A DNA stretch of 30,396 bases, taken from positions 1 through 30,396 of the IMG/VR virus record IMGVR_UViG_3300030333_003824; one strand, written 5' to 3'. Shown piece by piece: positions 11,592 through 28,773 of this stretch. Numbering within the stretch: the first letter of the stretch is position 1; the number at the start of each line of letters is the position of its first letter. Both the position numbers and the translations under genes were made by a program. The notes under the pieces are model-generated. The model saw nothing but the letters and a program-made list of their open reading frames with translations, ran no database searches and was not told the origin of the DNA. The stretch is from a virus.

Positions 11592-11802
11592 CGAGAACTT
11601 TGATCTTTTCAGGTAAGTTAGTTCCTTTTACATATTGAACAAGCTTGTCTTCAAGATATTCTTCTTTAGATTGAATAGTGTACCAACGTGCGTTACAGAC
11701 AAGACAGTTCCTTCTACGAACAATTCTGTCGTCTGTTGTTTCTCTGGTACTTACAACTTTTGATGTTTTGTTCCGGCAATACGGACACCACTGAAGTCTC
11801 AT
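11575..11802 (-). CDS. Stand-alone NrdR-like zinc-ribbon protein
   Basis: This 75-residue protein has the layout of the N-terminal zinc ribbon of the transcriptional repressor NrdR: CPYC (C6, C9), 'TSKVVSTRETTDDRIVRRRN' and CLVC (C33, C36), then 'ARWYTIQ'. The ATP-cone domain that follows in real NrdR (about 150 residues in total) is absent. Instead about 35 charged residues follow. It probably binds nucleic acid through the ribbon; regulation of nucleotide metabolism or of phage genes is conceivable but unproven. Its ATG overlaps the ATG of the plus-strand gene next to it (CATG at 11800-11803), leaving no room for a promoter between them. Confidence 0.75.
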   Translation of the reverse strand: MRLQWCPYCRNKTSKVVSTRETTDDRIVRRRNCLVCNARWYTIQSKEEYLEDKLVQYVKGTNLPEKIKVLDEKDS

Positions 11803-12470: not shown

Positions 12471-13160
12471 TTAGACGGCGGCTTTTCCTTTAACCATTTT
12501 GGCTAAATAATCGCCATGTGCTTTTGTCGTAATGTGATTTGGTGAAATTTCTTTAGCTGAAATATTAAACTCAGTTTTAAAATCTTTTAAAATCTTTTTT
12601 CTTTGTTCATCAGACAAGCTCCTTAAATCATTTTCAATTTGAGATTTAAAAGCTGGAGCTATAAATTCAGGAGCACCTGTTGGAGGTGGACTTGAAACTT
12701 GTTTTGGCTGAGTCGGAGTTCTAGCAATTCCTTTTCTTTGTTCGACCTTTTCTTTGGGTGCTGAACTTTCTGCATCATCGTCATCTCCTGCTAATCCATA
12801 GATTGCTAAGAGTGCATAACGTCTTGCATAAGTAATAGCTGAACCAAGTGCTTGCATAATGTTCCCTCTATTTGGAACAAGTTCAGGAAAAGGAAGTCGG
12901 CTGACTATTTCTTCACCTGAAATATGCTTAAGAGTCGTAACCAGAATTGTGATAACTTGGCCTGAGTCTGTAACCGTTGAATCAAAGGTTTGCGTATGGC
13001 AAAGACCTAAATGAGTTGCTGGCTGAACTGCATTTAATCCACCTGCAAGAGTTGTATAAAAACCATAATTGGCTTTACCGTCTTTTCCTGCTGCGTGGTG
13101 TTCCTGTTGGAATTGAACTAATGCTTCAGCTAAATTAGCTGGAGGCTTTGGCGAGGGCAT
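12471..13160 (-). CDS. erf: ERF-family single-strand annealing recombinase
   Basis: The protein has 229 residues from the ATG at 13160. It carries the ERF hallmark 'SAITYARRYALLAIYGLAGD' followed by an acidic DDDAE (about residues 107-131 of this form), preceded by 'LVPNRGNIMQALG'. The N-terminal 'LAEALVQFQQEHHAAGKDGK' and 'ANYGFYTTLAGGLNAV' fit the family core. A Pro/Thr-rich linker and a helical C-terminal DNA-binding part follow. ERF proteins anneal complementary strands in phage recombination. An in-frame ATG lies at 13178, but the 13160 ATG follows the AAAAAACCAC leader shared by other genes here, so I prefer it. Promoter 13192-13223 lies just upstream. Confidence 0.92.
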   Translation of the reverse strand: MPSPKPPANLAEALVQFQQEHHAAGKDGKANYGFYTTLAGGLNAVQPATHLGLCHTQTFDSTVTDSGQVITILVTTLKHISGEEIVSRLPFPELVPNRGNIMQALGSAITYARRYALLAIYGLAGDDDDAESSAPKEKVEQRKGIARTPTQPKQVSSPPPTGAPEFIAPAFKSQIENDLRSLSDEQRKKILKDFKTEFNISAKEISPNHITTKAHGDYLAKMVKGKAAV

Positions 13161-13191
13161 GTGGTTTTTTGATCCCATTTGTGTACTCTCT

Positions 13192-13223
13192 AATATTAAT
13201 AAGAATAATGATAGTTGTACACC
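13192..13223 (-). promoter_or_regulatory. Promoter/operator element upstream of the ERF gene
   Basis: Read on the minus strand, GGTGTACA (13223-13216) is followed by a 17-base spacer and TAATAT (13198-13193). The variant palindrome ATTCTTATTAATATT (13206-13192) covers the spacer end and the -10 box. The start codon at 13160 follows a GAGAGT start-site-like sequence and the AAAAAACCAC leader. This is one of four copies with the complete TGTACA-N17 arrangement. Confidence 0.75.
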
Positions 13224-13669
13224 TATAAAGGAATAATTTTAATGATTGCCCCGGGTAATTCATTCTTTTGAATGTATTTCTTTGTTGCAGTAATTGAGAT
13301 GACAAAACTATCATCTTTTAAAACAATTCCTCCTGATGTCACCGACAATCCATCAAGTGTGCTTCGACATAGTTTGTCAATATCTCCACTAGCGTGACTT
13401 GTTAAAAATTCAGGAGCGGAAGGTTTTAATTTATTTTTATTTTTTCCTGTTCCAAAATGTGATTTAGGTCGAGGAAAAAGAAACATTATTTCAACAATAC
13501 AAGCTTGTTGAATTGGATCAAAAGGAAAAGCTTCTAAACAAGCATGTCGAATATCTTGCCGCCAAGGCTGAACTTTTTTAGATGATTCAATAAGAGATCC
13601 ATAGCGAGTTAATCGTTTTGATCCTTGTGCCCCTGGAATCCCAATAACTCGAATATCAATCGGGTTCAA
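13223..13669 (-). CDS. rusA: RusA-type Holliday junction resolvase
   Basis: The protein has 148 residues from a TTG at 13669 that overlaps the TGA of the nuclease gene (TTGA); the frame stays open upstream to another TTG at 13702. It has the RusA pattern: 'IDIRVIGIPGAQGSKR' at the start, 'VEIMFLFPRPKSHF', then 'SGDIDKLCRSTLDGL' with the paired acidic residues, and 'GGIVLKDDSFVISITATKKY' with the DD and the distal Lys. RusA cuts four-way junctions, here probably resolving recombination intermediates or branched DNA before packaging. It sits between the nuclease and ERF genes. The start is uncertain; the fold assignment is firm. Confidence 0.88.
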   Translation of the reverse strand: MNPIDIRVIGIPGAQGSKRLTRYGSLIESSKKVQPWRQDIRHACLEAFPFDPIQQACIVEIMFLFPRPKSHFGTGKNKNKLKPSAPEFLTSHASGDIDKLCRSTLDGLSVTSGGIVLKDDSFVISITATKKYIQKNELPGAIIKIIPL

Positions 13670-14367
13670 AATGGATTCTGTTGCGAGTCGAACTTCTCCC
13701 AAGATTCATGCCAAGCTAACCGACAGGTTAATGGATCTTGATCTTCTCCAACAATGCACGTGTTTGGTCTTGACCAAATAGTTTTACAAGCATCAACCAC
13801 AATTTTATGGTGATTAGCTAAAGCTTCGACATAACTTCCAAGCTGTGCATCAGTGTTATATGTTTTCTTGTTTGATTTACTTTGAGTTTTAAGATCAATT
13901 AAAAGCAACTTTCCTTCCTTATGGTCATAACCTAAAACATCAAATTGGCCTCCAACTGATTTATCTAAGTCGGCAATCATATATTCAACAGCCCACGTTT
14001 CAAAGTTATTCCAAAATGGATCTGACAAAAGTGGATCTACCCAGTCTTTATATTCTTTTGGATTGGGTTGTGCATCACCTAATAGAAATTGTTCAAGACA
14101 ATAATGAACATGAACGCCCCGAGGTTCCCATATATGACGATACCGTTCAATATTTGCCATCTGTTCTGGTGTTTTATCAGAACCTGTTACTCGAGTTGTC
14201 GAATAGGCAAGCCATTCTCCAGTTGGTTCCCAACAATATTGATGACGTTCTTCATCACGATAAATGGGAAGAGGATCAAGTTTAAGTGATCCCCAAGCTG
14301 GGTTGCGTGAAAGATTCGGATTGTTCCCTAGCTGCTGGTAAGGTCCAGAGGTGTTCTTTTTTTCCAT
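13666..14367 (-). CDS. PD-(D/E)XK nuclease (Cas4/RecB-like exonuclease)
   Basis: The protein has 233 residues from the ATG at 14367. Motifs of the RecB/Cas4 type nuclease are visible: 'RGVHVHYCLEQFLLG' (H86/H88), 'GGQFDVLGYD' with D143, 'LLLIDLKTQS' with D158-x-K160, and 'YNTDAQLGSYVEAL' with Q175. In phages such enzymes supply 5'-3' resection for single-strand annealing, which fits ERF and SSB next door. Upstream TTG and ATG codons extend the frame to 14400, but they lie deeper in the winged-helix gene. The ATG at 14367 still overlaps that gene by 86 bases, which is unusual. No Cys cluster for an iron-sulfur site is obvious. Confidence 0.85.
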   Translation of the reverse strand: MEKKNTSGPYQQLGNNPNLSRNPAWGSLKLDPLPIYRDEERHQYCWEPTGEWLAYSTTRVTGSDKTPEQMANIERYRHIWEPRGVHVHYCLEQFLLGDAQPNPKEYKDWVDPLLSDPFWNNFETWAVEYMIADLDKSVGGQFDVLGYDHKEGKLLLIDLKTQSKSNKKTYNTDAQLGSYVEALANHHKIVVDACKTIWSRPNTCIVGEDQDPLTCRLAWHESWEKFDSQQNPF

Positions 14368-14608
14368 AGATTCCAAAAACATAGTCATTTGTTTTTTCAA
14401 GTTGGCCTTCGTTAGATAAATTTGTCATTGCTCGTCTAATTGACGTAATTGGGCAGTTAAGTCCTGATCGAGCAAGAACCATTGACGGGCTAAGAGGCTC
14501 GTTACAAGAATTAAAACAGTCAAGAATTTTTTCGCCTTGAGTTTTAGCTTTGGCTTGAGACTCGGCAAGTTCATCGGCTGTTTCTTCAATAGTGTTATAG
14601 AAAGTCAT
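14282..14608 (-). CDS. Winged-helix DNA-binding protein
   Basis: The protein has 108 residues from the ATG at 14608, which has AAAGGA 8 bases upstream. The frame extends to a TTG at 14701, but that region encodes another small gene. It has a helical N-terminus ('TIEETADELAESQAKAKTQG'), then 'LSPSMVLARSGLNCPITSIR' with 'RAMTNLSNEG', a helix-turn-helix followed by a wing ('GQLEKTNDYVFGIYGKKEHLW'). Such winged-helix proteins are common beside phage recombination genes. A regulatory or DNA-binding accessory role is inferred. It overlaps the small basic gene at its start by 14 bases and the nuclease gene at its end. Confidence 0.75.
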   Translation of the reverse strand: MTFYNTIEETADELAESQAKAKTQGEKILDCFNSCNEPLSPSMVLARSGLNCPITSIRRAMTNLSNEGQLEKTNDYVFGIYGKKEHLWTLPAAREQSESFTQPSLGIT

Positions 14609-14741
14609 TTTTAAATCCTTTGGCGGTTTTGGGTAATCGTTTTTTAGAAGCCTTAGGTTTAATCCTTTTTTTTGGCTTGTTGTAATTCCTGAAGCTTTCA
14701 ATATGTTTGTTGCTTGAGGTTCGTGATCCGGCTTGGCTCAT
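14595..14741 (-). CDS. Small highly basic protein (48 aa)
   Basis: A 48-codon gene starts at ATG 14741, which overlaps the TGA of the upstream gene (ATGA, 14738-14741), and stops at 14595 inside the start of the winged-helix gene. The product begins 'MSQAGSRTSSNKHIESFRNY', continues 'NKPKKRIKPKASKKRLPKTA' and ends 'KGFKNDFL', with about one third Lys and Arg. The overlap at both ends and the protein-like composition argue that it is real. A nucleic-acid binding role is plausible from charge alone; I do not recognise a family. Confidence 0.65.
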   Translation of the reverse strand: MSQAGSRTSSNKHIESFRNYNKPKKRIKPKASKKRLPKTAKGFKNDFL

Positions 14742-15010
14742 GTTGCTAAGTCCTTTGGGTCGATTATTTCCACCGATTCAGAAGGTGGTGTTGCTTCTCT
14801 TGCTAGGTTCCTAAATCTCACACCTTCGTAGCCTCTGGGGAAGATAGCAAGATTTGAATTTGCATCATCAATACATCTTTGAGCACCTGGGCTTGGTTGA
14901 TCTAAATCTTCAAGAGTCCAAAGTGGCTTTTCTGGGTTTGAAGGGTTTGGGCTCGTAAGGCCTCGTTTGAGCAATTTGATGATCGAGGCTCTGTTATATA
15001 AGGGTTCCAT
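14738..15010 (-). CDS. Unknown protein of the replication/recombination operon
   Basis: This 90-residue protein begins 'MEPLYNRASIIKLLKRGLTS' and continues 'EKPLWTLEDLDQPSPGAQRC' and 'IFPRGYEGVRFRNLAREA'. I do not recognise a family; there are no membrane segments or metal motifs. It overlaps the TAA of the upstream gene by one base, with AGAGG about 10 bases before the ATG, and its TGA overlaps the next ATG. The tight coupling suggests a shared role with the recombination genes downstream. Confidence 0.7.
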   Translation of the reverse strand: MEPLYNRASIIKLLKRGLTSPNPSNPEKPLWTLEDLDQPSPGAQRCIDDANSNLAIFPRGYEGVRFRNLAREATPPSESVEIIDPKDLAT

Positions 15011-15663
15011 TAATCGAAGCCTCTGGAAGCCGTAAAGACTCGCTGTGCAGGATGTCCTGATGTTGGTTCAGGATCAAAAGGCCATTTGTTTTTTTTACTT
15101 ACTGAAAAGTTTTCATGGTTTTTTAAAAGGATGCTTTGCCACTCACTGGCAATAGCTAATTCAAGTTGTTCTTTGGCTGCTGTCTCTCCATATTTCTTTT
15201 TTATACCTAACAAACCTTTTTCACTCATCAATAAATCAAAAGCTGCTTCTGTTCTTTTTCCTTTTTTGCTGTACCAAAAATCTTCAATCAAGGTTGATAA
15301 AGATTGAAGTTCAAAAGGAATTAAATCCTTACTAAATTTAAACCTTGTTTTTTTGAAATTTTCTTTTTCTTTATTTATTCTATTAGATACTCTATTTGTA
15401 TTAGATAAAGCCCCGTCGCTCTTGTTCTCTTTGTTTTGTTCTTTTGTTTGTGTCTCTGCACCGCTAGGTGCTTTAAGTGTAACATGCCCCGTAACCCCCC
15501 TTAATCCTTGTGAAACCATTTCGTTTACAAAAGCAGTGGTAGAAAGCCAAGGCGGTTTTTCTGTCTGACAGGTTGATAGTAAACCTTCATCGATTGGTAC
15601 GTTTTTTGTAGGCATTGAATGTGCTAAATGTGCGGTTTTAATGCTGTTTTCATGCTTAATCAT
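15010..15663 (-). CDS. Unknown protein, possible replication-initiation/helicase-loader type
   Basis: This 217-residue protein has a low-complexity middle (Lys/Asn/Glu, about residues 70-105) between two better-structured parts. The N-terminal part has 'PPWLSTTAFVNEMVSQGLRG'. The C-terminal part has 'LIEDFWYSKKGKRTEAAFDL', 'KYGETAAKEQLELAIASEWQ' and 'SILLKNHE'. The C-terminal pattern (Trp-Lys-Lys-Gly-Lys followed by a helix pair and 'EWQSI') resembles small C-terminal domains of DnaT or replication-initiator proteins in phages. I infer a replication accessory protein at low certainty. It is the first gene of the leftward run from the divergent region 15664-15766. Confidence 0.65.
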   Translation of the reverse strand: MIKHENSIKTAHLAHSMPTKNVPIDEGLLSTCQTEKPPWLSTTAFVNEMVSQGLRGVTGHVTLKAPSGAETQTKEQNKENKSDGALSNTNRVSNRINKEKENFKKTRFKFSKDLIPFELQSLSTLIEDFWYSKKGKRTEAAFDLLMSEKGLLGIKKKYGETAAKEQLELAIASEWQSILLKNHENFSVSKKNKWPFDPEPTSGHPAQRVFTASRGFD

Positions 15664-15703
15664 GCTGTATGCAGTTTTTGAACGCCACCCTAGTTGAAAT
15701 AAA

Positions 15704-15734
15704 TTGCAATGTTATTTGTGTCGATATGTATAAT
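15704..15734 (+). promoter_or_regulatory. Possible rightward promoter in divergent region
   Basis: TTGCAA (15704-15709) and TATAAT (15729-15734) are separated by 19 bases, a little longer than optimal. They lie 33 bases before the ATG at 15767, which has GGAGG upstream. The -10 box is perfect; the -35 is weak. This region does not contain the palindrome found at the other promoters. Confidence 0.45.
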
Positions 15735-15766
15735 GGACTTGACCTGAAGCTCGGAGGCTGTTGCCA

Positions 15767-15961
15767 ATGACCACTAGGACTCAACAAATCAAGGAAAGTC
15801 TTAAAACTTATGGGGCTGATCCTTATCAAATTGCTGCTGAAGCCATTGAACGAGGCGACCGTTTAGCTGCTTATGTTAATCGGTTGCAAAAGGCTCTTTC
15901 CCAAGTGCCTGATTTAGAAGTTCACGAACAACATTGCTCTGGCTTGTGTTCGTCTCTCTAG
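15767..15961 (+). CDS. Small unknown helical protein
   Basis: This 64-residue protein starts at the ATG at 15767, with GGAGG 10 bases upstream (a TTG six bases earlier is less likely). It contains 'TQQIKESLKTYGADPYQIAA' and 'ERGDRLAAYVNRLQKALSQV', both helical, and ends with a Cys pair in 'CSGLCSSL'. I do not recognise a family. Its last 86 bases overlap the 3' end of the ribbon-helix-helix gene on the other strand, so both may be expressed at different times. Confidence 0.6.
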   Translation: MTTRTQQIKESLKTYGADPYQIAAEAIERGDRLAAYVNRLQKALSQVPDLEVHEQHCSGLCSSL

Positions 15962-16052
15962 CTATTTGAACAATTTGATTTTTAGTTTCGATAGTGACGC
16001 TGACTTGAAGGATTTCGCTCCATAAGTCACTACCTTTCGAGCGGTTAGACAT
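15876..16052 (-). CDS. Ribbon-helix-helix (Arc/CopG-type) DNA-binding protein
   Basis: The protein has 58 residues from the ATG at 16052 (a TTG at 16079 would add nine). It has the ribbon-helix-helix layout: a beta strand 'LQVSVTIET', helix one 'KNQIVQIARETN', a turn 'TSQS' and helix two 'NVVRELLNQALG'. Such proteins bind short palindromes as dimers or tetramers and often repress phage promoters. A copy of the genome's repeated palindrome lies at 16094-16108, just upstream of this gene, so autoregulation is plausible. It is the best candidate in the window for a regulator of the TGTACA/palindrome promoters, but this is inference. Confidence 0.7.
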   Translation of the reverse strand: MSNRSKGSDLWSEILQVSVTIETKNQIVQIARETNTSQSNVVRELLNQALGKEPFATD

Positions 16053-16087
16053 AAATTTTGGAAATAATTGAAAAAACAATTTTTAAA

Positions 16088-16291
16088 CTATTTTATCTTA
16101 TTAAGATTAGCAATGCTAAAATAAAGTTCAAGCTCTTCCTTTGTTGTTTCTTTTAAAAGTTGATAATCCTTTTCTGTTAGCTTTAAACCTTTTAATGATT
16201 TTGCGTTTTCTTCTTTTTCCCAATAAGAAATGAGGAGCGTTAACTCCTCAATCCTTTTCTTTGCGTATTCGATCTTTTCACTTGTCTTCAT
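16088..16291 (-). CDS. Small coiled-coil-like protein
   Basis: This 67-residue protein begins 'MKTSEKIEYAKKRIEELTLL' and continues 'LTEKDYQLLKETTKEELELY', with Leu and Ile spacing typical of a coiled coil. An in-frame ATG at 16300 would add three residues. It overlaps the upstream gene by 14 bases. The palindrome copy at 16094-16108 falls within its last codons. No family is recognised. Confidence 0.6.
   Translation of the reverse strand: MKTSEKIEYAKKRIEELTLLISYWEKEENAKSLKGLKLTEKDYQLLKETTKEELELYFSIANLNKIK
16094..16108 (-). promoter_or_regulatory. Palindrome copy upstream of the ribbon-helix-helix gene
   Basis: TATCTTATTAAGATT differs at one end base from the perfect palindrome seen elsewhere. 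Read on the minus strand it ends in TAAGAT at a distance of about 42 bases from the 16052 ATG, but TGTACA is missing at the expected -35 position. It lies inside the 3' end of the 16088-16291 gene. Confidence 0.5.
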
Positions 16292-16901
16292 TTTCAGCAT
16301 CTTCTATATCTTGCAAATAGTCTAATTCCTCTTTTGTTCTTGGATCTAATTCCTTATCTTCTCGATAACTAAACGCATTTTCTGGAGAATCTTCCTCTAG
16401 GAAAATGCCTTGCCCCGGATCTTCTCGTCTTAGAAGTAAATGGATAGGAACATTATTAACATCTAAGTAACCGCCTATTTTTAGAAATACCTCGGCTGGC
16501 AAATCCATTGCATCCTTCTCGTAATCGGGGTCATGTTTTTTCGATTCTGTGTACCAGAAGATAGAGCGAGTCCCTGCTGAGTCAGCCCATATCAAACGAG
16601 CTTTTGGCTCAAGATAATCCTGACTAAATTTTCTAACCCATTTATCCGCAGGTCTTTCAAAATAAGTTTTAGCCTTATGCTCTGATCCAACAATTAGAAC
16701 TTTTGGAAAGGGCTTTGTCCTGTGAACTCTCCATGACTGTTTAAGTTCCCACCACAAGCCTTCTTTTTCTCTTTTTTCAATTTGCTTTCTGGCTCTGGAG
16801 AGAACTTCGTCCATTGTTTCTCCATACATAATGCAATCTCCGAAATGCACTTCCCATCTCACTTCGGTTGGGACTGGATAAGCTGGATTTGTTGGGTTCA
16901 T
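16278..16901 (-). CDS. Unknown protein, acidic C-terminus
   Basis: The protein has 207 residues from the ATG at 16901, which overlaps the TGA of the gene upstream (ATGA, 16898-16901); an earlier in-frame ATG at 16955 lies inside that gene. Segments include 'VRWEVHFGDCIMYGETMDEV', 'GLWWELKQSWRVHRTKPFPK' and 'PAEVFLKIGGYLDVNNVP'. The last 35 residues are strongly acidic. I do not recognise a family. The Trp-rich, alternating pattern suggests a compact alpha/beta domain. It is co-transcribed with small genes on both sides. Confidence 0.65.
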   Translation of the reverse strand: MNPTNPAYPVPTEVRWEVHFGDCIMYGETMDEVLSRARKQIEKREKEGLWWELKQSWRVHRTKPFPKVLIVGSEHKAKTYFERPADKWVRKFSQDYLEPKARLIWADSAGTRSIFWYTESKKHDPDYEKDAMDLPAEVFLKIGGYLDVNNVPIHLLLRREDPGQGIFLEEDSPENAFSYREDKELDPRTKEELDYLQDIEDAENEDK

Positions 16902-17113
16902 GGTGCTGGCGTAAGCATGTGTTGAGCGTGTTCTGACGTGCGTCCGTCCTTCCATTGGACTGTGCAGTAAATACAGGGGGTTCCTTTTTTGTTGAACTTT
17001 TCCCTCATTGATATGACCTGCCCAACATCAGAGCCGATTTCTAAAAACATTCCTGCGGTGGTTCTTCTCTTGTTTACAGAATCACCTTTTTTGTATCTAG
17101 GGGTTGCTGGCAT
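16898..17113 (-). CDS. Small SH3/KOW-like basic protein
   Basis: This 71-residue protein has 'PRYKKGDSVNKRRTTAGMFL', 'GQVISMREKFNKKGTPCIY' and 'TVQWKDGRTSEHAQHML'. This beta pattern (a GD-V start, a turn, 'VQWKDG') is that of a small SH3- or KOW-like barrel, often seen in phage small proteins. The function is unknown. It follows a terminator at 17128-17165, so it needs its own promoter or readthrough; none is evident in the short gap. Confidence 0.65.
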   Translation of the reverse strand: MPATPRYKKGDSVNKRRTTAGMFLEIGSDVGQVISMREKFNKKGTPCIYCTVQWKDGRTSEHAQHMLTPAP

Positions 17114-17127
17114 TTTGTTTTGTGTAA

Positions 17128-17165
17128 ATAAAAAAAACCTGAGAAGTAATGACCTCTCAGGTTTG
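17128..17165 (-). terminator. Rho-independent terminator of the 17177-17410 gene
   Basis: On the minus strand an 8-base stem ACCTGAGA / TCTCAGGT (17162-17155 and 17144-17137) with a 10-base loop is followed by a run of seven T's and more T-rich sequence. It starts 12 bases after the stop codon of the upstream gene. Confidence 0.85.
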
Positions 17166-17176
17166 AAGTTTTGGTT

Positions 17177-17410
17177 TTAGTAGTTCAAGCCAACAATGTG
17201 TTTTGTGCATGAATACTTGAGGCCGTGTCTTTTTGCTTCGGCTACCATTGCTTCTTTTTCTTCTAAAGAGTAGGCGTAATCATCCCAATCTTTTTCAGTA
17301 ACAATGTGCCAGTAGTAGCTTGGATTTTCTTCCGCATGTTTTTCCTCTCTTGCTTGGATGTCAAGTTGTTCGAGGTGGCGGTTTAAATCTGATTCAACGG
17401 GACAAGACAT
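17177..17410 (-). CDS. Small unknown protein in a monocistronic unit
   Basis: This is a 77-residue charged protein ('RHLEQLDIQAREEKHAEENP', 'YYWHIVTEKDWDDYAYSLEE', 'KRHGLKYSCTKHIVGLNY'). I do not recognise a family. It forms a self-contained unit with a full TGTACA/palindrome promoter upstream, an AAAAAACCAC leader directly before the ATG and a terminator after it. The same layout recurs for other small genes here, suggesting an early accessory function such as host takeover or anti-defence; that is inference. Confidence 0.7.
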   Translation of the reverse strand: MSCPVESDLNRHLEQLDIQAREEKHAEENPSYYWHIVTEKDWDDYAYSLEEKEAMVAEAKRHGLKYSCTKHIVGLNY

Positions 17411-17436
17411 TTTGTGGTTTTTTATCTGAACTCTTT

Positions 17437-17468
17437 AATCTTATTAAGATTAGATCCACTTGTACACC
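17437..17468 (-). promoter_or_regulatory. Promoter/operator element, leftward copy
   Basis: Read on the minus strand, GGTGTACA (17468-17461) is followed by a 17-base spacer and TAAGAT (17443-17438), within the palindrome AATCTTAATAAGATT (17451-17437). TTAAAGAGT follows at the expected start site, then the AAAAAACCAC leader and the 17410 ATG. All elements are in the consensus arrangement. Confidence 0.8.
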
Positions 17469-17492
17469 TTTGCATCGGTTTTGTTATGTAAC

Positions 17493-17522
17493 TGTCTTGA
17501 TTGGATTATTCTTATTAAGATT
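17493..17522 (+). promoter_or_regulatory. Promoter/operator element, rightward copy
   Basis: ATTCTTATTAAGATT (17508-17522) matches the palindrome at 14 of 15 bases. TGTCTT at 17493-17498 lies 17 bases before TAAGAT (17516-17521), a weaker version of TGTACA. A short hairpin (GAGGAA/TTCCTC, 17530-17543) and the AAAAACCACGGAG leader follow, before the ATG at 17569. Confidence 0.65.
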
Positions 17523-17568
17523 AATGCATGAGGAATTTTCCTCTTATCTAAAAACCACGGAGTTTTAA

Positions 17569-17805
17569 ATGGGTCAAATCGCTGACAGCCTCAGATCAAT
17601 CGTTCAGACAATGAAAGATGGAGATGAGATTTTTAAACAGAATCTCAAAGAAATCGAAGAGGCAGCCAAAAACCTAAGCGAAGCTGCAGAAGGATTAACA
17701 AAAGCTTCTACTGAATTGATTGACGATTTAGAAGAAGAAGATGACGAGCCTTCTGACTATGAAATGATGTCTGCCTTTGGTACAAAATGGCACGACGGTC
17801 TTTAA
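17569..17805 (+). CDS. Small acidic coiled-coil-like protein
   Basis: This 78-residue protein begins 'MGQIADSLRSIVQTMKDGDE' and has heptad-like 'LKEIEEAAKNLSEAAEGLTK', then the acidic run 'DDLEEEDDEP' and 'MMSAFGTKWHDGL' at the end. It has no recognised family. The ATG is preceded by GGAG at 7 bases within the shared AAAAACCACGGAG leader. It is monocistronic: a palindrome promoter lies in front and a strong terminator starts at 17821. Confidence 0.75.
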   Translation: MGQIADSLRSIVQTMKDGDEIFKQNLKEIEEAAKNLSEAAEGLTKASTELIDDLEEEDDEPSDYEMMSAFGTKWHDGL

Positions 17806-17820
17806 ATTAAATTTCACGAG

Positions 17821-17847
17821 CCCCTCGAAAGAGGGGTTTTTATTTTT
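17821..17847 (+). terminator. Rho-independent terminator
   Basis: CCCCTC-GAAA-GAGGGG (17821-17836), a GC-rich stem with a GAAA tetraloop, is followed by TTTTTATTTTT. It ends the 17569-17805 gene. Confidence 0.9.
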
Positions 17848-17873
17848 CCTACATCTATCCCCCTATAAAAATT

Positions 17874-18245
17874 ATGTCAAAAGAAATCAGAATGATTAAA
17901 GGCAAATTGTACAAAGAAGAATCTGCTGGAAATTGGGAACCAATGGAAACAAATGCAATTAATGATGCTGGTGTTGCCTATCGAGCAATTCAGCGACTTC
18001 TTTTGTCAATTACTGATGATGAAATTAAAAGAGCTGATTTAATGCGACCTGAATTAAATCCTTTGGTTGAAGCTATGGACACACTTCAAGCAATAAGAAA
18101 TATTGAAAAAAAGTCTTTAGAAAAAGAACTTAGACCTAATTCATGGACTGAAGCAGCCGCCGGACCGTATAACCAAAAGGGATGGAAGGATGCCGCCAAT
18201 GCAGATGGTTATTTGTTTAACGAATACAACGAAGTCGAGGAATAG
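17874..18245 (+). CDS. Unknown protein (123 aa)
   Basis: The N-terminus 'EIRMIKGKLYKEESAGNWEP' is followed by helical 'NDAGVAYRAIQRLLLSITDD' and 'EALDTL'-type segments, and then 'RPNSWTEAAAGPYNQKGWKD'. I do not recognise a family. It begins 27 bases after a terminator, without a clear Shine-Dalgarno or palindrome, so its promoter is not identified. Its stop TAG overlaps the GGTGTACA of the next promoter. Confidence 0.65.
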   Translation: MSKEIRMIKGKLYKEESAGNWEPMETNAINDAGVAYRAIQRLLLSITDDEIKRADLMRPELNPLVEAMDTLQAIRNIEKKSLEKELRPNSWTEAAAGPYNQKGWKDAANADGYLFNEYNEVEE

Positions 18246-18276
18246 GTGTACAAAAGCACCTAATCTTATTAAGATT
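18245..18276 (+). promoter_or_regulatory. Promoter/operator element upstream of the DUF2958 operon
   Basis: GGTGTACA (18245-18252), a 17-base spacer and TAAGAT (18270-18275) are present, with the perfect palindrome AATCTTATTAAGATT at 18262-18276. The AAAAACCACC leader ends at the ATG at 18299. The start of transcription is predicted near 18282. Confidence 0.8.
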
Positions 18277-18298
18277 AAATTGTTCAATAAAAACCACC

Positions 18299-18598
18299 AT
18301 GAAGCTATTAACAAAAGCTCTTGAAAAAAAGCTCCCCGCCATTCATTCAGCTACAAATAAAGCTTATGTGAAATGGTTTACTCCTTGGACTAATTGGAAT
18401 TGGTTCGTTATGGAGTACAACCCAGAAACAGGAGAATGTTTTGGCTATGTTGAAGGTCTTGAAAAAGAGTTTGGCTACTTCAATATTAAAGAGATTGAAA
18501 AACTTGAAGGTCCATTTGGACTAAAAGTTGAAAGAGACAGATTGTTTGAAACAACAACTGTTGTTGTTAATGACAAAATCAACGAGGAATTGAACTAA
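18299..18598 (+). CDS. DUF2958 family protein
   Basis: This 99-residue protein matches the DUF2958 pattern: 'YVKWFTPWTNWNWFVMEYNP' followed by 'ECFGYVEGLEKEFGYFNIKE', then 'LEGPFGLKVERDRLF'. The family is found in phages, plasmids and mobile elements and has no settled function. It is the first gene of a rightward operon of six small genes ending at the 20514-20545 terminator. Its ATG comes directly after the AAAAACCACC leader, with no Shine-Dalgarno. The TAA shares a base with the next ATG. Confidence 0.85.
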   Translation: MKLLTKALEKKLPAIHSATNKAYVKWFTPWTNWNWFVMEYNPETGECFGYVEGLEKEFGYFNIKEIEKLEGPFGLKVERDRLFETTTVVVNDKINEELN

Positions 18599-18726
18599 TG
18601 AGATTCCTTTTATTTGCCGCCTTCGGGGCGGTTCTTTTTTGGGGAGTTAATTCTTCCCTTTCAGACATGACTCGCCACGATTGCGAAGTTAACAAAATCC
18701 AACTCGCTTGCCAATCTTTAAAATGA
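18598..18726 (+). CDS. Small membrane peptide (42 aa)
   Basis: A 42-codon gene begins at ATG 18598, overlapping the previous stop, with GAGG about 10 bases before it. It ends with TGA overlapping the next ATG (ATGA, 18723-18726). The N-terminal 20 residues 'MRFLLFAAFGAVLFWGVNSS' form a signal or membrane helix. The short remainder has two Cys ('DCEVNKIQLACQ'), compatible with a disulfide outside the cytoplasm. It fits a secreted or membrane-anchored peptide; a lysis or superinfection-exclusion role is only a guess. Confidence 0.7.
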   Translation: MRFLLFAAFGAVLFWGVNSSLSDMTRHDCEVNKIQLACQSLK

Positions 18727-19700
18727 GAACAAAAAGAACTAGAAAGTCCTCTAATATTACTGAGCTTAAAAAGCTTAGAAAGGCTGAACTTGATTATTCC
18801 AATGTTCATTTTCAAGTTGAACTTATTGATCCAGAAAAAGCAAGAGAATACTTAGCAACTAATTTTGAAAACAACAGAACGATTCGACCTTCTAATGTTT
18901 CCAAGATTGTTGATGATATTAAAAGCGGTGAGTTCTATTTAAGTTGGGACTGTCTTGCTTTTAATGAAAAAGGTCAATTAGTTAATGGTCAACATAGGTT
19001 ATCTGCTGTTATTGAAGCAGGTGTCCCTTGTCGTTTTTATGTTTTAAGAAACATAGATCATTCAACAATTAAACATTTTGATATTGGTAACAAACGAAGT
19101 CAGGCTGACCGCATTGCTGTTCATGGAACACCTATGAACCCTAAAGCTTGTGCAGTTATTAAAGCTTGCTTTGGCGATTGGGATTCTAATTTTACGGGTA
19201 AAGGTCGATATGGTTATGCAAAATATGATGATTTAATTGCTTCTTATTACAGAAGACATTCAGAATATTTTGAACAACTTGAAGAAGAGGGGTATCTCAG
19301 AGCTAAGTACATAGGAAACTTTGTAACAGCAGCTTTTAAGATTTTCTTGGAAATGAAGTCTGGAAAAGCACGTTTTAACGAGTTTCCTCATGGGATGGAA
19401 CCTTATGAAAGAAGTGTCTTCTGGTTAGATTTGTGTATTGATGGAAAATCAAAACATCATCAAATTGATTACAACACAGATCAAGCCCCATTTAAGTTAA
19501 GAGAAAAATTGATTTCTCGGAAAGGTTTAGGAAAAACCATGTATGGGCAAGATGCTTTCAAGCTTTATTGCGCTGCCGCCTTTTACTTTATGCAAGGTAG
19601 ATCACCAGCTCTTAGAGTTGATAATTTAAAATCTGACCCTTTTAGCGTGTTTAGAGGTCTTCCACTAACTAATGATGTAAAGAGAGAAAGTCATGAGTAA
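18723..19700 (+). CDS. ParB/sulfiredoxin-fold protein
   Basis: The protein has 325 residues from the ATG at 18723 (ATGA overlap; an earlier TTG at 18708 is less likely). The ParB/Srx-type motif is 'FNEKGQLVNGQHRLSAVIEA', with H91 and R92, preceded by 'TIRPSNVSKIVDDIKSGEF' and followed by 'FYVLRNIDHSTIKHFDIGNK'. The rest is helical and of unknown role. Phage members of this group may be nucleases, NTPases or regulators of DNA binding; the sequence does not say which. The basic N-terminus 'RTKRTRKSSNITELKKLRK' suggests nucleic-acid contact. Confidence 0.75.
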   Translation: MRTKRTRKSSNITELKKLRKAELDYSNVHFQVELIDPEKAREYLATNFENNRTIRPSNVSKIVDDIKSGEFYLSWDCLAFNEKGQLVNGQHRLSAVIEAGVPCRFYVLRNIDHSTIKHFDIGNKRSQADRIAVHGTPMNPKACAVIKACFGDWDSNFTGKGRYGYAKYDDLIASYYRRHSEYFEQLEEEGYLRAKYIGNFVTAAFKIFLEMKSGKARFNEFPHGMEPYERSVFWLDLCIDGKSKHHQIDYNTDQAPFKLREKLISRKGLGKTMYGQDAFKLYCAAAFYFMQGRSPALRVDNLKSDPFSVFRGLPLTNDVKRESHE

Positions 19701-19965
19701 TAATCGAGATTTATCCAAAGTTCTTGAATCTTTAAAAGATTTAGAACAAAAGACAGCTTCCGCAGAGGAAATCAGTGTCTTAAAAGAGTTGCTTGGAGTG
19801 ACAATAACTTCAGTAGTAGAAATTGCAAATCAAAATTCAATAATTTCAAAAGCTTTACAAAAAGAGAATCAACTTCTTAATAAGAAAGTTGGTTTAAACC
19901 GTGAAGCTATAGATCAAATTATTCAAACTCTTTCTAAATTGTTTGGTTTCCACTTAAAAAAATGA
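19693..19965 (+). CDS. Small helical protein (90 aa)
   Basis: The product begins 'MSNNRDLSKVLESLKDLEQK' and continues 'NQNSIISKALQKENQLLNKK', with Leu/Ile spacing suggesting an extended coiled coil. No family is recognised. It overlaps the ParB-like gene by 8 bases and the next small gene by ATGA, so translation is coupled within the operon. Confidence 0.65.
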   Translation: MSNNRDLSKVLESLKDLEQKTASAEEISVLKELLGVTITSVVEIANQNSIISKALQKENQLLNKKVGLNREAIDQIIQTLSKLFGFHLKK

Positions 19966-20135
19966 CAACATCTCAAGAAGTCACAATTCGACTAAAAATT
20001 CAAACACTTGAATATGTTTTGGATCTTCTTTGTCAAGAAGCAGATCGACCAATCACAGTTTTTCTACCAGAAAAATATGAAGATCAAGTTTCCTATTTAA
20101 AAAAGGAAATTACAAGAACAGTCGAGATGATCTAA
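19962..20135 (+). CDS. Small unknown protein (57 aa)
   Basis: A 57-codon gene begins at the ATG of an ATGA overlap (19962-19965). The product begins 'MTTSQEVTIRLKIQTLEYVL', continues 'DLLCQEADRPITVFLPEKYE' and ends 'DQVSYLKKEITRTVEMI'. The helix-turn-strand pattern and the overlap argue for a real gene. No family is recognised. Confidence 0.6.
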   Translation: MTTSQEVTIRLKIQTLEYVLDLLCQEADRPITVFLPEKYEDQVSYLKKEITRTVEMI

Positions 20136-20259
20136 AAATGGGGCATTGACTCCTCAAGGAAGTTAGTGGTTTTTCTTCTTTACCTGCTTCTTTGCACAAT
20201 GGGAAGTTAGGGAGCGAGTCATGTAAGACCCCTTATAATAAAAAAAAAGGTTTTAAATT
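20136..20259 (+). other. Non-coding leader with repeats and a -10-like box
   Basis: This 124-base gap contains a direct repeat GGAAGTTAG (20158-20166, 20202-20210), an inverted repeat TGACTC/GAGTCA (20147-20152, 20216-20221) and TATAAT at 20234-20239, with no convincing -35 box. It may be a structured leader or late promoter for the gene at 20260. The evidence is weak. Confidence 0.35.
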
Positions 20260-20499
20260 ATGGCCACATCAAGAACTTACAAAAGCCGGAGAAGCCTTGA
20301 ACGTGGGGCAGGCGCTCAAATTCGAAGAGGAGAAAGAGAAAAAAGAATTGCTGGAGGAAATGTTCTTATTAGAAGAACAGGTATTGCCGGAAAAATTATT
20401 GGAAGAGATGGCGGTCTGTATCAAATTCAAGTGACCTCACCCGGAAGTTTTTATGAAAGAGATGTTTTTCTTGAAGCTAGTGGATTTAGAAGAATTTGA
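20260..20499 (+). CDS. Small basic protein with KOW-like pattern
   Basis: This 79-residue protein is very Arg/Gly-rich: 'RTYKSRRSLERGAGAQIRRG', 'LIRRTGIAGKIIGRDGGLYQ' and 'QVTSPGSFYERDVFLEASGF'. The middle resembles a small SH3/KOW-like RNA- or DNA-binding barrel. AAAGG lies about 11 bases before the ATG, and a bidirectional terminator follows at 20514. A second frame over the same DNA (20192-20434) is less protein-like and starts at TTG, so I prefer this one. Confidence 0.6.
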   Translation: MATSRTYKSRRSLERGAGAQIRRGEREKRIAGGNVLIRRTGIAGKIIGRDGGLYQIQVTSPGSFYERDVFLEASGFRRI

Positions 20500-20513
20500 A
20501 TTTTAAAATAGGC

Positions 20514-20545
20514 AAAAAAAAAGGCCCCTTTTTGAGGGGCTTTTT
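20514..20545. terminator. Bidirectional Rho-independent terminator
   Basis: The stem GCCCCT / AGGGGC (20524-20529, 20535-20540) is flanked by an A run on the left and a T run on the right, so it can end both the rightward 20260-20499 gene and the leftward 20551-20796 gene. Confidence 0.85.
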
Positions 20546-20550
20546 AATTG

Positions 20551-20796
20551 TTAGTTGACTGGGAATAACTCAACGACTTGTTTTTTAGCGGCTCCGAAAA
20601 CAATAATCATGTCTTTTAAAGCGGCTGTAAATTCCTTGTCGTGAGTAGCTAGGCGGCGATTAAAGTCATTTCTGTAATCGCTTAAGCTGAGTTCCTTGTT
20701 ATCCAACTTTGCTTCCAATTCCTCAATTTTTTGAAGACTGGCTTTGTAAGCGGCAAAGATTTCAGCTTTTTTGTTTGCCTGAGTGACCTTAGTCAT
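20551..20796 (-). CDS. Small coiled-coil-like protein in a monocistronic unit
   Basis: This 81-residue protein reads 'MTKVTQANKKAEIFAAYKAS', then 'LQKIEELEAKLDNKELSLSD' and 'RLATHDKEFTAALKDMIIVF'. It is helical, possibly a coiled coil in the first half. The leader is AAAAACCACGGAGTTTT followed by the ATG, almost identical to that of the 17569 gene. A palindrome lies upstream at 20825-20839 and a terminator downstream. The function is unknown. Confidence 0.75.
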   Translation of the reverse strand: MTKVTQANKKAEIFAAYKASLQKIEELEAKLDNKELSLSDYRNDFNRRLATHDKEFTAALKDMIIVFGAAKKQVVELFPVN

Positions 20797-20824
20797 TTAG
20801 AAAACTCCGTGGTTTTTACTCTTT

Positions 20825-20854
20825 AATCTTATTGAGATTAGATTGATCCGTATG
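20825..20854 (-). promoter_or_regulatory. Promoter/operator element, variant copy
   Basis: The palindrome variant AATCTTATTGAGATT (20825-20839) on the minus strand ends in TAAGATT, followed by TTAAAGAGT and the AAAAACCAC leader. At the -35 position (20854-20849) the bases are CATACG, a poor match to TGTACA. Either a weaker promoter or one that needs an activator is possible. Confidence 0.6.
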
Positions 20855-20876
20855 CCCCTTTCTTTAAAATTGATGC

Positions 20877-20917
20877 GGTTTGATGTAATTCAAACCAAAA
20901 CATTAAGAGGGGGGGGG
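20877..20917. repeat. 20-bp inverted repeat and run of nine G
   Basis: GGTTTGA-TGTAAT-TCAAACC (20877-20896) is a perfect 7-base inverted repeat. It is followed by nine consecutive G's at 20909-20917, unusual in this AT-rich DNA. It lies in a 198-base gap between two leftward units. No gene is seen here. Confidence 0.5.
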
Positions 20918-20962
20918 TTTAGTAGGAAAAAGAATTTGGCTAGTTGAGCAGTTATTTTTTCC

Positions 20963-20986
20963 AAAAAAAAAGAGCCTTGCGGCTCT
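20963..20986 (-). terminator. Rho-independent terminator of the 20995-21159 gene
   Basis: On the minus strand AGAGCC-GCAA-GGCTCT (20986-20971) is followed by a run of T's (20970-20963). It lies 8 bases after the stop codon of the 54-residue gene. Confidence 0.9.
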
Positions 20987-20994
20987 TGTTTGAT

Positions 20995-21159
20995 TTAGGC
21001 AGGAATGACTCGTCTTCCATTTGAAACAACGTCTTTCCATTCAACCCAGCAATCTTTCTCTTTTTCATCCATCACTTGAATTAAGGTTCCTTTGTCATAT
21101 CCAATGATTTGAACGGGAACCATTGTTCTTTTAATGAAATGAGTTGGGCGAAATTTCAT
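20995..21159 (-). CDS. Small protein (54 aa) with promoter, leader and terminator
   Basis: A 54-codon gene begins at ATG 21159, immediately after AAAAAACCACCAA, and ends with TAA at 20995. The product begins 'MKFRPTHFIKRTMVPVQIIG', continues 'YDKGTLIQVMDEKEKDCWVE' and ends 'WKDVVSNGRRVIPA'. The beta pattern suggests a compact SH3-like domain. The complete unit (palindrome at 21184-21198, shared leader, terminator at 20963) is strong evidence that this small gene is expressed. The function is unknown. Confidence 0.75.
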   Translation of the reverse strand: MKFRPTHFIKRTMVPVQIIGYDKGTLIQVMDEKEKDCWVEWKDVVSNGRRVIPA

Positions 21160-21183
21160 TTGGTGGTTTTTTGATTACTTTTT

Positions 21184-21198: not shown

Positions 21199-21233
21199 AT
21201 GTCCTTCTTTTTCTTTTTGATGCGGTTCGTTGC

Positions 21234-21274: not shown

Positions 21275-21778
21275 ATGACTTCGATACAAGATCTTAAGCC
21301 TGATCCTCAAAATGCTCGGAAAAGAACTGACCGATCCGCTTCTCTTATAAAAGAATCCATTCAACGTTATGGAACGGCTCGCTCAATAGTTATAGATGAA
21401 GATAATCGTATCCTTGCTGGTAATGGAACTGTTGAAGGAGCAAAAGCAAATGGTTTAAAGAATGTCCGAGTTATTGAGGCTGATGGATCAGAAGTAATTG
21501 CGATAAAAAGAACAGGATTAACCGAAGAACAAAAAATCGGTTTAGCTCTAGCCGATAACAGAACAAGTGACTTATCCGACTGGGATCGGGAAATGTTGCA
21601 CAACCTTTCTCAAACTCATGATGTCAGCCCTTGGTTTGATGAGGAAGACCTAGAAAACCTCTTAGGCAAAGACGACATAAAAGAGTACGAAGGAGCAACA
21701 GAACATTCAGAAGAAGATTTTGACAACTTCCAACACACTTGCCCTAGATGTGGATTTGAGTTTGATGGAAAAAACTAA
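21275..21778 (+). CDS. ParB-like domain protein with C-terminal zinc-ribbon half
   Basis: This 167-residue protein has 'IQDLKPDPQNARKRTDRSAS', 'LIKESIQRYGTARSIVIDED' and 'RILAGNGTVEGAKANGLKNV', the standard N-terminal ParB-like fold; the usual GHxR is replaced by GNGT. 'GLTEEQKIGLALADNRTSDL' is also typical of phage members. The C-terminus has one CPRC in 'HTCPRCGFEF', a half zinc ribbon. Such proteins occur next to phage DNA methyltransferases and terminases. Here the gene overlaps the methyltransferase by 14 bases. A role in DNA modification or packaging control is inferred. Confidence 0.85.
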   Translation: MTSIQDLKPDPQNARKRTDRSASLIKESIQRYGTARSIVIDEDNRILAGNGTVEGAKANGLKNVRVIEADGSEVIAIKRTGLTEEQKIGLALADNRTSDLSDWDREMLHNLSQTHDVSPWFDEEDLENLLGKDDIKEYEGATEHSEEDFDNFQHTCPRCGFEFDGKN

Positions 21779-28677: not shown

Positions 28678-28709
28678 TATCTTAATAAGAATAGCGTATT
28701 TTGTACACC
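28678..28709 (-). promoter_or_regulatory. Promoter/operator element of the antisense gene
   Basis: On the minus strand GGTGTACA (28709-28702), a 17-base spacer and TAAGAT (28684-28679) are present, with the palindrome ATTCTTATTAAGATA (28692-28678). AAGAGTAA follows at the expected start site. The AAAAACCAC leader is absent here. Confidence 0.75.
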
Positions 28710-28760
28710 ATGCCTTACGGTAAAAAGAAAAAAAACAAGAAAGGGGTCAAGAAGAAATAA
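28710..28760 (+). CDS. Tiny lysine-rich peptide (16 aa)
   Basis: An ATG directly after TGTACACC opens 16 codons, MPYGKKKKNKKGVKKK, with ten Lys in 16 residues, then TAA. Very short basic peptides of this kind occur near capsid genes in marine phages, but there is no clear Shine-Dalgarno here. It could be a DNA- or capsid-binding peptide, or an untranslated coincidence. Confidence 0.45.
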   Translation: MPYGKKKKNKKGVKKK

Positions 28761-28773
28761 TCTTGATAAGATA
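28759..28773 (+). promoter_or_regulatory. Palindrome copy upstream of the scaffold gene
   Basis: AATCTTGATAAGATA lies 22 bases before the ATG at 28796 and contains TAAGAT at 28767-28772. No TGTACA is found 17 bases further upstream (the bases there are GGGTCA). It probably adds a promoter inside the head operon. Confidence 0.5.

Follow-up and report, generated by a model that had tools for sequence, protein, structure and literature searches.

Six genes in a 30,396-nucleotide (nt) viral DNA (IMG/VR record IMGVR_UViG_3300030333_003824, positions 1 to 30,396; this whole stretch is called the window below) carry the same 9-nt leader, AAAAACCAC, next to their start codons, and an intergenic element at 20140-20232 is predicted to fold into an RNA that presents the exact complement of this leader in a hairpin loop. 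We propose that the element encodes a trans-acting antisense RNA of the phage, which pairs with the shared leader at the initiation regions of several probably early genes, most likely preventing their translation; we consider this reading probable. The sequence comparison behind it shows the shared leader, the complementary loop, the joint variation of leader and loop, compensatory changes in the stems, and the strand on which the structure lies.

The motif AAAAACCAC was found seven times in the window, both strands counted, compared with 0.72 copies expected, and 0 of 100 shuffles gave seven. Six of the seven copies lie 0-12 nt upstream of a start codon, in genes that occupy both strands, and the shared leader claimed at six gene starts in the original prediction is therefore real. 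The six leaders are as follows.

13161-13169, minus strand: leader AAAAACCAC of the ERF gene (12471-13160), 0 nt from the ATG at 13160.
17414-17422, minus strand: leader AAAAACCAC of a 77-amino-acid (aa) gene, 3 nt from the ATG at 17410; its orthologues carry leader A, B or C by lineage (see below).
17550-17558, plus strand: leader AAAAACCAC followed by GGAGTTTTAA, before a 78-aa gene with ATG at 17569.
18289-18297, plus strand: leader AAAAACCAC of a DUF2958 gene (99 aa), 1 nt from the ATG at 18299.
20809-20817, minus strand: leader AAAAACCAC followed by GGAGTTTTCTAA, before an 81-aa gene with ATG at 20796.
21163-21171, minus strand: leader AAAAACCAC of a 54-aa gene, 3 nt from the ATG at 21159.

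In two of the six genes (17569 and 20796), GGAGTTTT lies between the leader and the ATG. The list of six was right as far as it went and missed the seventh copy (20166-20174, minus strand), which is intergenic, flanked by the stop at 20135 and a gene at 20260, and has no start codon; read as an antisense loop, it accounts for the other six. Moving the ERF start from 13178 to 13160 was also correct, since the upstream ATG runs into a TAA in relative L004 and is out of frame in L005, and the AAAAACCAC-ATG arrangement is kept. The leader before ERF is retained in 6 of 8 close relatives (L003, L004, L005, L008, L009, and L010) and differs from AAAAACCAC in L006 and L007. The suggested comparison with third-codon drift came out in favor of the leader: in L009 and L010, 9 of 9 leader bases are identical to the window versus 56-59% of four-fold degenerate ERF sites. 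Among the products, ERF is an annealing protein (PF04404, E 2e-15) and one is a DUF2958 protein; the other four are small, with no confident family in PHROGs or Pfam, and neither database gave an antirepressor (ant) match for any of the six. Pairing of CCAC with 16S rRNA was considered and set aside. The earlier proposal of a site for another factor, or of a stability signal, stands insofar as the 16S 3' end does not appear to be the partner; an antisense RNA is favored over a protein or a simple stability signal, both of which are unlikely.

The seventh copy lies, as its reverse complement, within the structured element, whose predicted fold consists of a closed stem P1, an inner helix P2, and a seed hairpin P3.

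20140-20232, plus strand: antisense structured RNA element, starting 4 nt past the stop of a 57-aa gene (19962-20135).
20140-20232, plus strand: P1, enclosing P2, GGGG 20140-20143 with CCCC 20229-20232.
20147-20221, plus strand: P2, UGAC 20147-20150 with GUCA 20218-20221.
20156-20181, plus strand: seed hairpin P3, stem 20156-20162 with 20175-20181.
20166-20174, plus strand: seed GUGGUUUUU, within the 12-nt hairpin loop 20163-20174, the exact reverse complement of the leaders.

The loop UUAGUGGUUUUU thus complements the leaders exactly. The minimum free energy (MFE) of the element is -30.6 kcal/mol on the plus strand versus -20.3 kcal/mol on the other, and the seed has a mean probability of 0.76 of being unpaired, with an opening cost of 1.1 kcal/mol. 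The architecture is conserved in 11 type A contigs, at least 12 type B contigs, and one type C contig, and relatives follow the pattern GGGGC...UUGAC...GAAG-UUAGUGGUUUUU-CUUC...GUCAUGUAAG.CCCC, with spacer stretches ranging from zero to many bases. Searches against Rfam found nothing at the element, either in the window or in L008, L177, or L006. Nine of the 11 A and C elements begin 3-4 nt past the stop codon of a same-strand upstream gene, the identity of which varies. In lineage B a predicted -10 (TAGAAT, read by eye) lies in a related palindrome, 6 nt before the GGGG; directly upstream of the B element in L177 there are CCCTATTTA tandem repeats (11600-11665). A tiny peptide ending in KKKNH on the minus strand of the element was rejected, as its frame is lost in L006 and L009 (judged by eye).

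The strongest evidence comes from relatives gathered by protein similarity to ERF and to the 18299 and 17410 gene products, and hence independently of leader and loop; a few more were added through hairpin or leader patterns. Type A has leaders AAAAACCAC and loop GUGGUUUUU. Type B has leaders TCAACCAC on orthologous genes and loop GUGGUUGA (UCCCGUGGUUGAGG) in an element of the same design. Type C, a single contig (L008), has three leaders AAATACCAC (AATACCAC) and two A-type leaders AAAACCAC, with loop GUGGUAUUU. In the 11 A-loop contigs in which the hairpin was seen, the start-proximal leaders were 60 A, 0 B, and 0 C; in the 12 B-loop contigs they were 73 B, 1 A, and 0 C; the C-loop contig gave 3 C, 2 A, and 0 B. 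The leaders of the 17410 and 18299 orthologues switch with lineage. It had been stated beforehand that relatives conserving the genes and not this sequence would speak against the leader; some relatives do swap it (for TCAACCAC or AAATACCAC), and the hairpin loop swaps to match. When 16 records were searched whole, all 6 A records had the A loop exactly once and the 10 others lacked it; all 4 B records had the B loop exactly once and the 12 others lacked it. Leaders before starts lie in sense orientation in 157 cases versus 5 antisense, and several internal variants would still pair through G-U (AAAAGCCAC at 3 sites, TCAACCGC in 5 contigs, and AGATACCAC at 1 site). Such compensatory change across lineages is a natural version of the usual proof of base pairing. 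Our script did not detect the hairpin in 4 A-grouped, 5 B-grouped, and 1 C-grouped contigs; in L204 the hairpin is present with an altered 3' half, and the remaining contigs are fragmentary, apart from L213, which is probably not a member. L213 had been grouped as type A by pattern, yet its antisense copies look incidental. Ten further contigs with a homologue of 18299 or 17410 have neither leader set nor hairpin.

The stems vary in a compensatory manner as well. In 11 elements, with helices that were picked by eye (a choice that favors these helices), 40 of 40 P2 cells were paired compared with a shuffle mean of 30.1 and maximum of 37, and 72 of 77 P3 cells compared with a mean of 57.2 and maximum of 65. 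The P2 exchanges were U-A/C-G, G-C/A-U/U-A, A-U/G-C, and C-G/A-U; P1 is almost without variation and hence uninformative. On the strand antisense to the leaders the stem cells include 11 G-U and 0 A-C combinations, and the structure is therefore assigned to that strand, which also has the lower fold energy in 15 of 18 elements. Single-element fold z-scores range from about 0 to -4. Pairing energies agree with the lineage assignment: median values were -10.5, -13.4, and -10.5 kcal/mol for cognate loop-leader combinations versus -7.4 to -8.7 kcal/mol for non-cognate ones, and the window leaders are accessible, with opening costs of 0.01-1.1 kcal/mol.

Judged by sequence, complementarity to several mRNAs at their initiation regions, conserved by co-variation, places the element among candidate trans-acting antisense small RNAs. 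We infer that the RNA is produced, that it acts in trans, that repression is the effect, and at what time it acts. In the window lineage the RNA (20140-20232, plus strand) would arise at the 3' end of an operon, by read-through or by processing; in lineage B it may come from its own promoter. Its loop GUGGUUUUU would pair in trans with the 9-nt AAAAACCAC at the starts of at least six mRNAs (ERF, DUF2958, and four small proteins). By analogy with antisense RNAs that cover start sites, such pairing would span the -1 to -21 region and keep ribosomes off, and the RNA would act as a common brake on several genes, probably early ones. The element sits behind a gene run headed by a leader gene, an arrangement in which the RNA would give negative feedback. 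A further suggestion, speculative and with a small chance of being right, is a re-addressable RNA regulon in which one RNA with an 8-9-nt address reads matching tags at gene starts. With addresses differing by lineage, an incoming phage would have its genes, the recombinase among them, silenced by the RNA of a resident phage if both were of one type, and would escape if they were of different types; the result would be a lineage-specific, RNA-based heteroimmunity across the regulon.

Several observations weigh against the antisense reading. The 9-bp loop-leader duplex is weak alone (-10.0 to -10.6 kcal/mol); -10 kcal/mol is reached by 4% of random 60-mers from the window, and 2 of 28 other gene starts are at -9.7 kcal/mol or below. 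As a single-genome criterion, hairpin plus leader is unspecific, with 26 of 147 other loci passing (the 147 include L173, a copy of the L164 contig), so the case rests on comparison. Only about two loop changes are seen (A/B and A/C), and C is one contig with mixed leaders. Some leader variants lack full pairing (TAAAACCAC, 3; ACAAACCAC, 2; AAATACCTC, 1). For L006, L163, and L007 the better fold is on the other strand; in L004 and L005 some of the seed region is base-paired in the MFE structure; and 3 of 7 B elements (L191, L198, and L202) are predicted to have their seed paired over half of the time. No U-run terminator follows the element, and no related RNA was found in cultured phages.

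The promoters of the leader genes bear on the alternatives. By eye, a promoter can be predicted for most leader genes, its spacer 17 nt long and its -10 inside a palindrome, AATCTTAWTAAGATT; the upstream hexamer is TGTACA here and TTGACA in many relatives, and the -10 is TAAGAT or TAATAT. From the predicted promoter positions the 5' leaders are probably just ~20-35 nt long. A scan of the window allowing up to 3 mismatches, both strands counted, gave 25 palindrome matches versus 3.95 expected, including the following.

17437-17451, minus strand: palindrome AATCTTAATAAGATT, covering the predicted -10 (TAAGAT), with TGTACA 17 nt upstream.
13192, 16094, 17508, 18262, 20825, 21184, 21234, 28678, and 28759: palindrome-like sites from the motif scan.

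Promoters of the same type without a leader were found at 21275 and 16052, and a leader without such a promoter at L003:792; the leader thus appears to be a separate module tied to the start codon. That module could be recognized as double-stranded DNA by a phage protein, in the manner of an operator or stoperator, at the leaders and at the intergenic copy alike, and could change jointly for that reason. Every copy, the intergenic one included, does have the same sequence, and the palindromic promoter element often precedes the leaders. Such a site would not explain why a covarying stem, with G-U pairs on one strand, presents the intergenic copy in its loop, why the leaders hold near the start codon while promoter distance varies, or the cases just given in which leader and promoter occur apart; the orientation bias and the G-U-compatible variants also speak against it, and we consider it unlikely. 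The leader might instead be merely a translation enhancer free of a Shine-Dalgarno sequence, A-rich and of the S1 type, with the hairpin match incidental. The leaders are A-rich and near the start codon, and a similar leader is shared by 18 starts in L040, a Bacteroidota-like phage contig. Neither the switch of a whole leader set together with one loop nor the single conserved antisense copy per record is explained in this way, and as the full account it is very unlikely; an enhancer role may exist in addition to the proposed antisense function. In L040, which is unrelated, the leader is AACCAAAA, preceded by TATATTCACGTT-like sequence, and we take it to resemble a Bacteroidota-type leader.

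Two more alternatives keep the element as RNA. As an operon 3' hairpin it could pair in cis with the leader at the 5' end of its own mRNA, affecting decay or circularization, and in the window the element does follow a gene run starting at leader gene 18299. The leaders at 13160, 17410, 20796, and 21159 are on the other strand and hence on other transcripts, and the gene upstream of the element changes between lineages, which makes a cis element quite unlikely. Or the opposite strand could be transcribed, with AAAAACCAC in its loop titrating an RNA-binding protein that recognizes the leaders, a decoy of CsrB-like logic. The reverse strand folds too, and better in 3 of 18 elements, but the other 15 and the G-U count favor the antisense strand, and a same-strand gene stops 3-4 nt before the element in 9 of 11 A and C cases; this is the least probable explanation that we weighed.

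The palindromes may have a reader of their own. A 58-aa ribbon-helix-helix (RHH) or Arc-like protein is encoded at 15876-16052 (minus strand; PF01402, E 0.0037, below the curated cut-off; PHROG Arc-like repressor, E 0.002), and is a candidate operator-binding, autoregulated repressor of all palindrome promoters. The palindrome at 16094-16108 precedes this gene, and there is no leader there. Palindromes at 28678-28692 and 28759-28773 flank a short region between 28655 (minus strand) and 28796 (plus strand), near structural genes, and the genes there are leaderless. Iteron-like repeats resembling GATGCGGTT lie upstream of several leader promoters (about 17473, 20866-20885, and 21218-21230) and also in L004, L006, and L007. 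Eight of the ten contigs noted above for an 18299 or 17410 homologue (L174, L175, L182-L184, L186, L187, and L200) have no CTTAWTAAGA palindrome core, leader set, or hairpin; core, leader set, and hairpin seem to travel together as a package.

By terminase, the nearest cultured phages are Synechococcus phages S-H1 and KBS-S-2A and Prochlorococcus phages MED4-184 and MED4-117 (52-53% identity), and this similarity to siphophages of the two genera suggests marine picocyanobacteria as the likely hosts. In these four phages we found no AAAAACCAC and no shared leader that survived inspection. Start-proximal copies of AAAAACCAC are absent from L011-L020, which are more distant relatives by ERF; TAAACCAATG in L016 was rejected as a shared leader, as it looks like a stop-start overlap. 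Scans for the ERF and 17410 families with one genome per species gave no relative, and so no prophage or host. A loose promoter-plus-leader pattern, applied to viral contigs, was swamped by chance matches.

The closest known system is c4 RNA of phages P1 and P7, a structured antisense RNA whose loops complement the ribosome-binding site of ant mRNA and block its translation, as described in excerpts from a review (PMC12197685). Like c4 (RF01695), the window element shows the complement of a ribosome-binding region in a loop; unlike c4, which in that account acts on one ant mRNA (PMC12197685), its loop matches at least six leaders. The RF01695 covariance model gave no match in the window (up to E 5) or in L008, L177, and L006 (up to E 1). 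The same portion of that source lists other phage antisense RNAs, P22 sar, lambda OOP, and cyanophage CfrI (PMC12197685), and c4 has been reported along with the cyanophage motifs manA, wcaG, and PhotoRC-II (PMC2864571, in the part available). CfrI of cyanophage S-PM2 is likewise an antisense RNA of a marine cyanophage, about 225 nt long, but is cis-encoded at psbA, and no shared leader is mentioned for it in the text available (PMC12197685). CI RNA of the satellite phage P4, according to the excerpted account, has two complementary sites (seqA and seqC) and is processed from a longer transcript (PMC4825925); it is thus also a phage antisense RNA with more than one complementary target. CI terminates transcription prematurely through sites up- and downstream of itself, whereas here the targets are separate gene starts on both strands.

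Bacterial small RNAs derived from 3' untranslated regions, compared from general knowledge, resemble the element in its position 3-4 nt past a stop codon in most A and C contigs, and differ in that here the upstream gene varies by lineage, a U-run terminator is lacking, and the targets are phage genes. Our literature search, which left subscription papers mostly outside, turned up no account of a single phage RNA whose regulon is defined by a shared leader. If our reading is true, it describes a simple post-transcriptional switch over scattered operons, and shared leaders in phage genomes can lead to the RNAs that read them. Each of the phage antisense RNAs known from the source portions cited above has a single gene or a single leader transcript as its target; in the present case, one structured RNA appears to govern several phage genes by way of the leader that they have in common.

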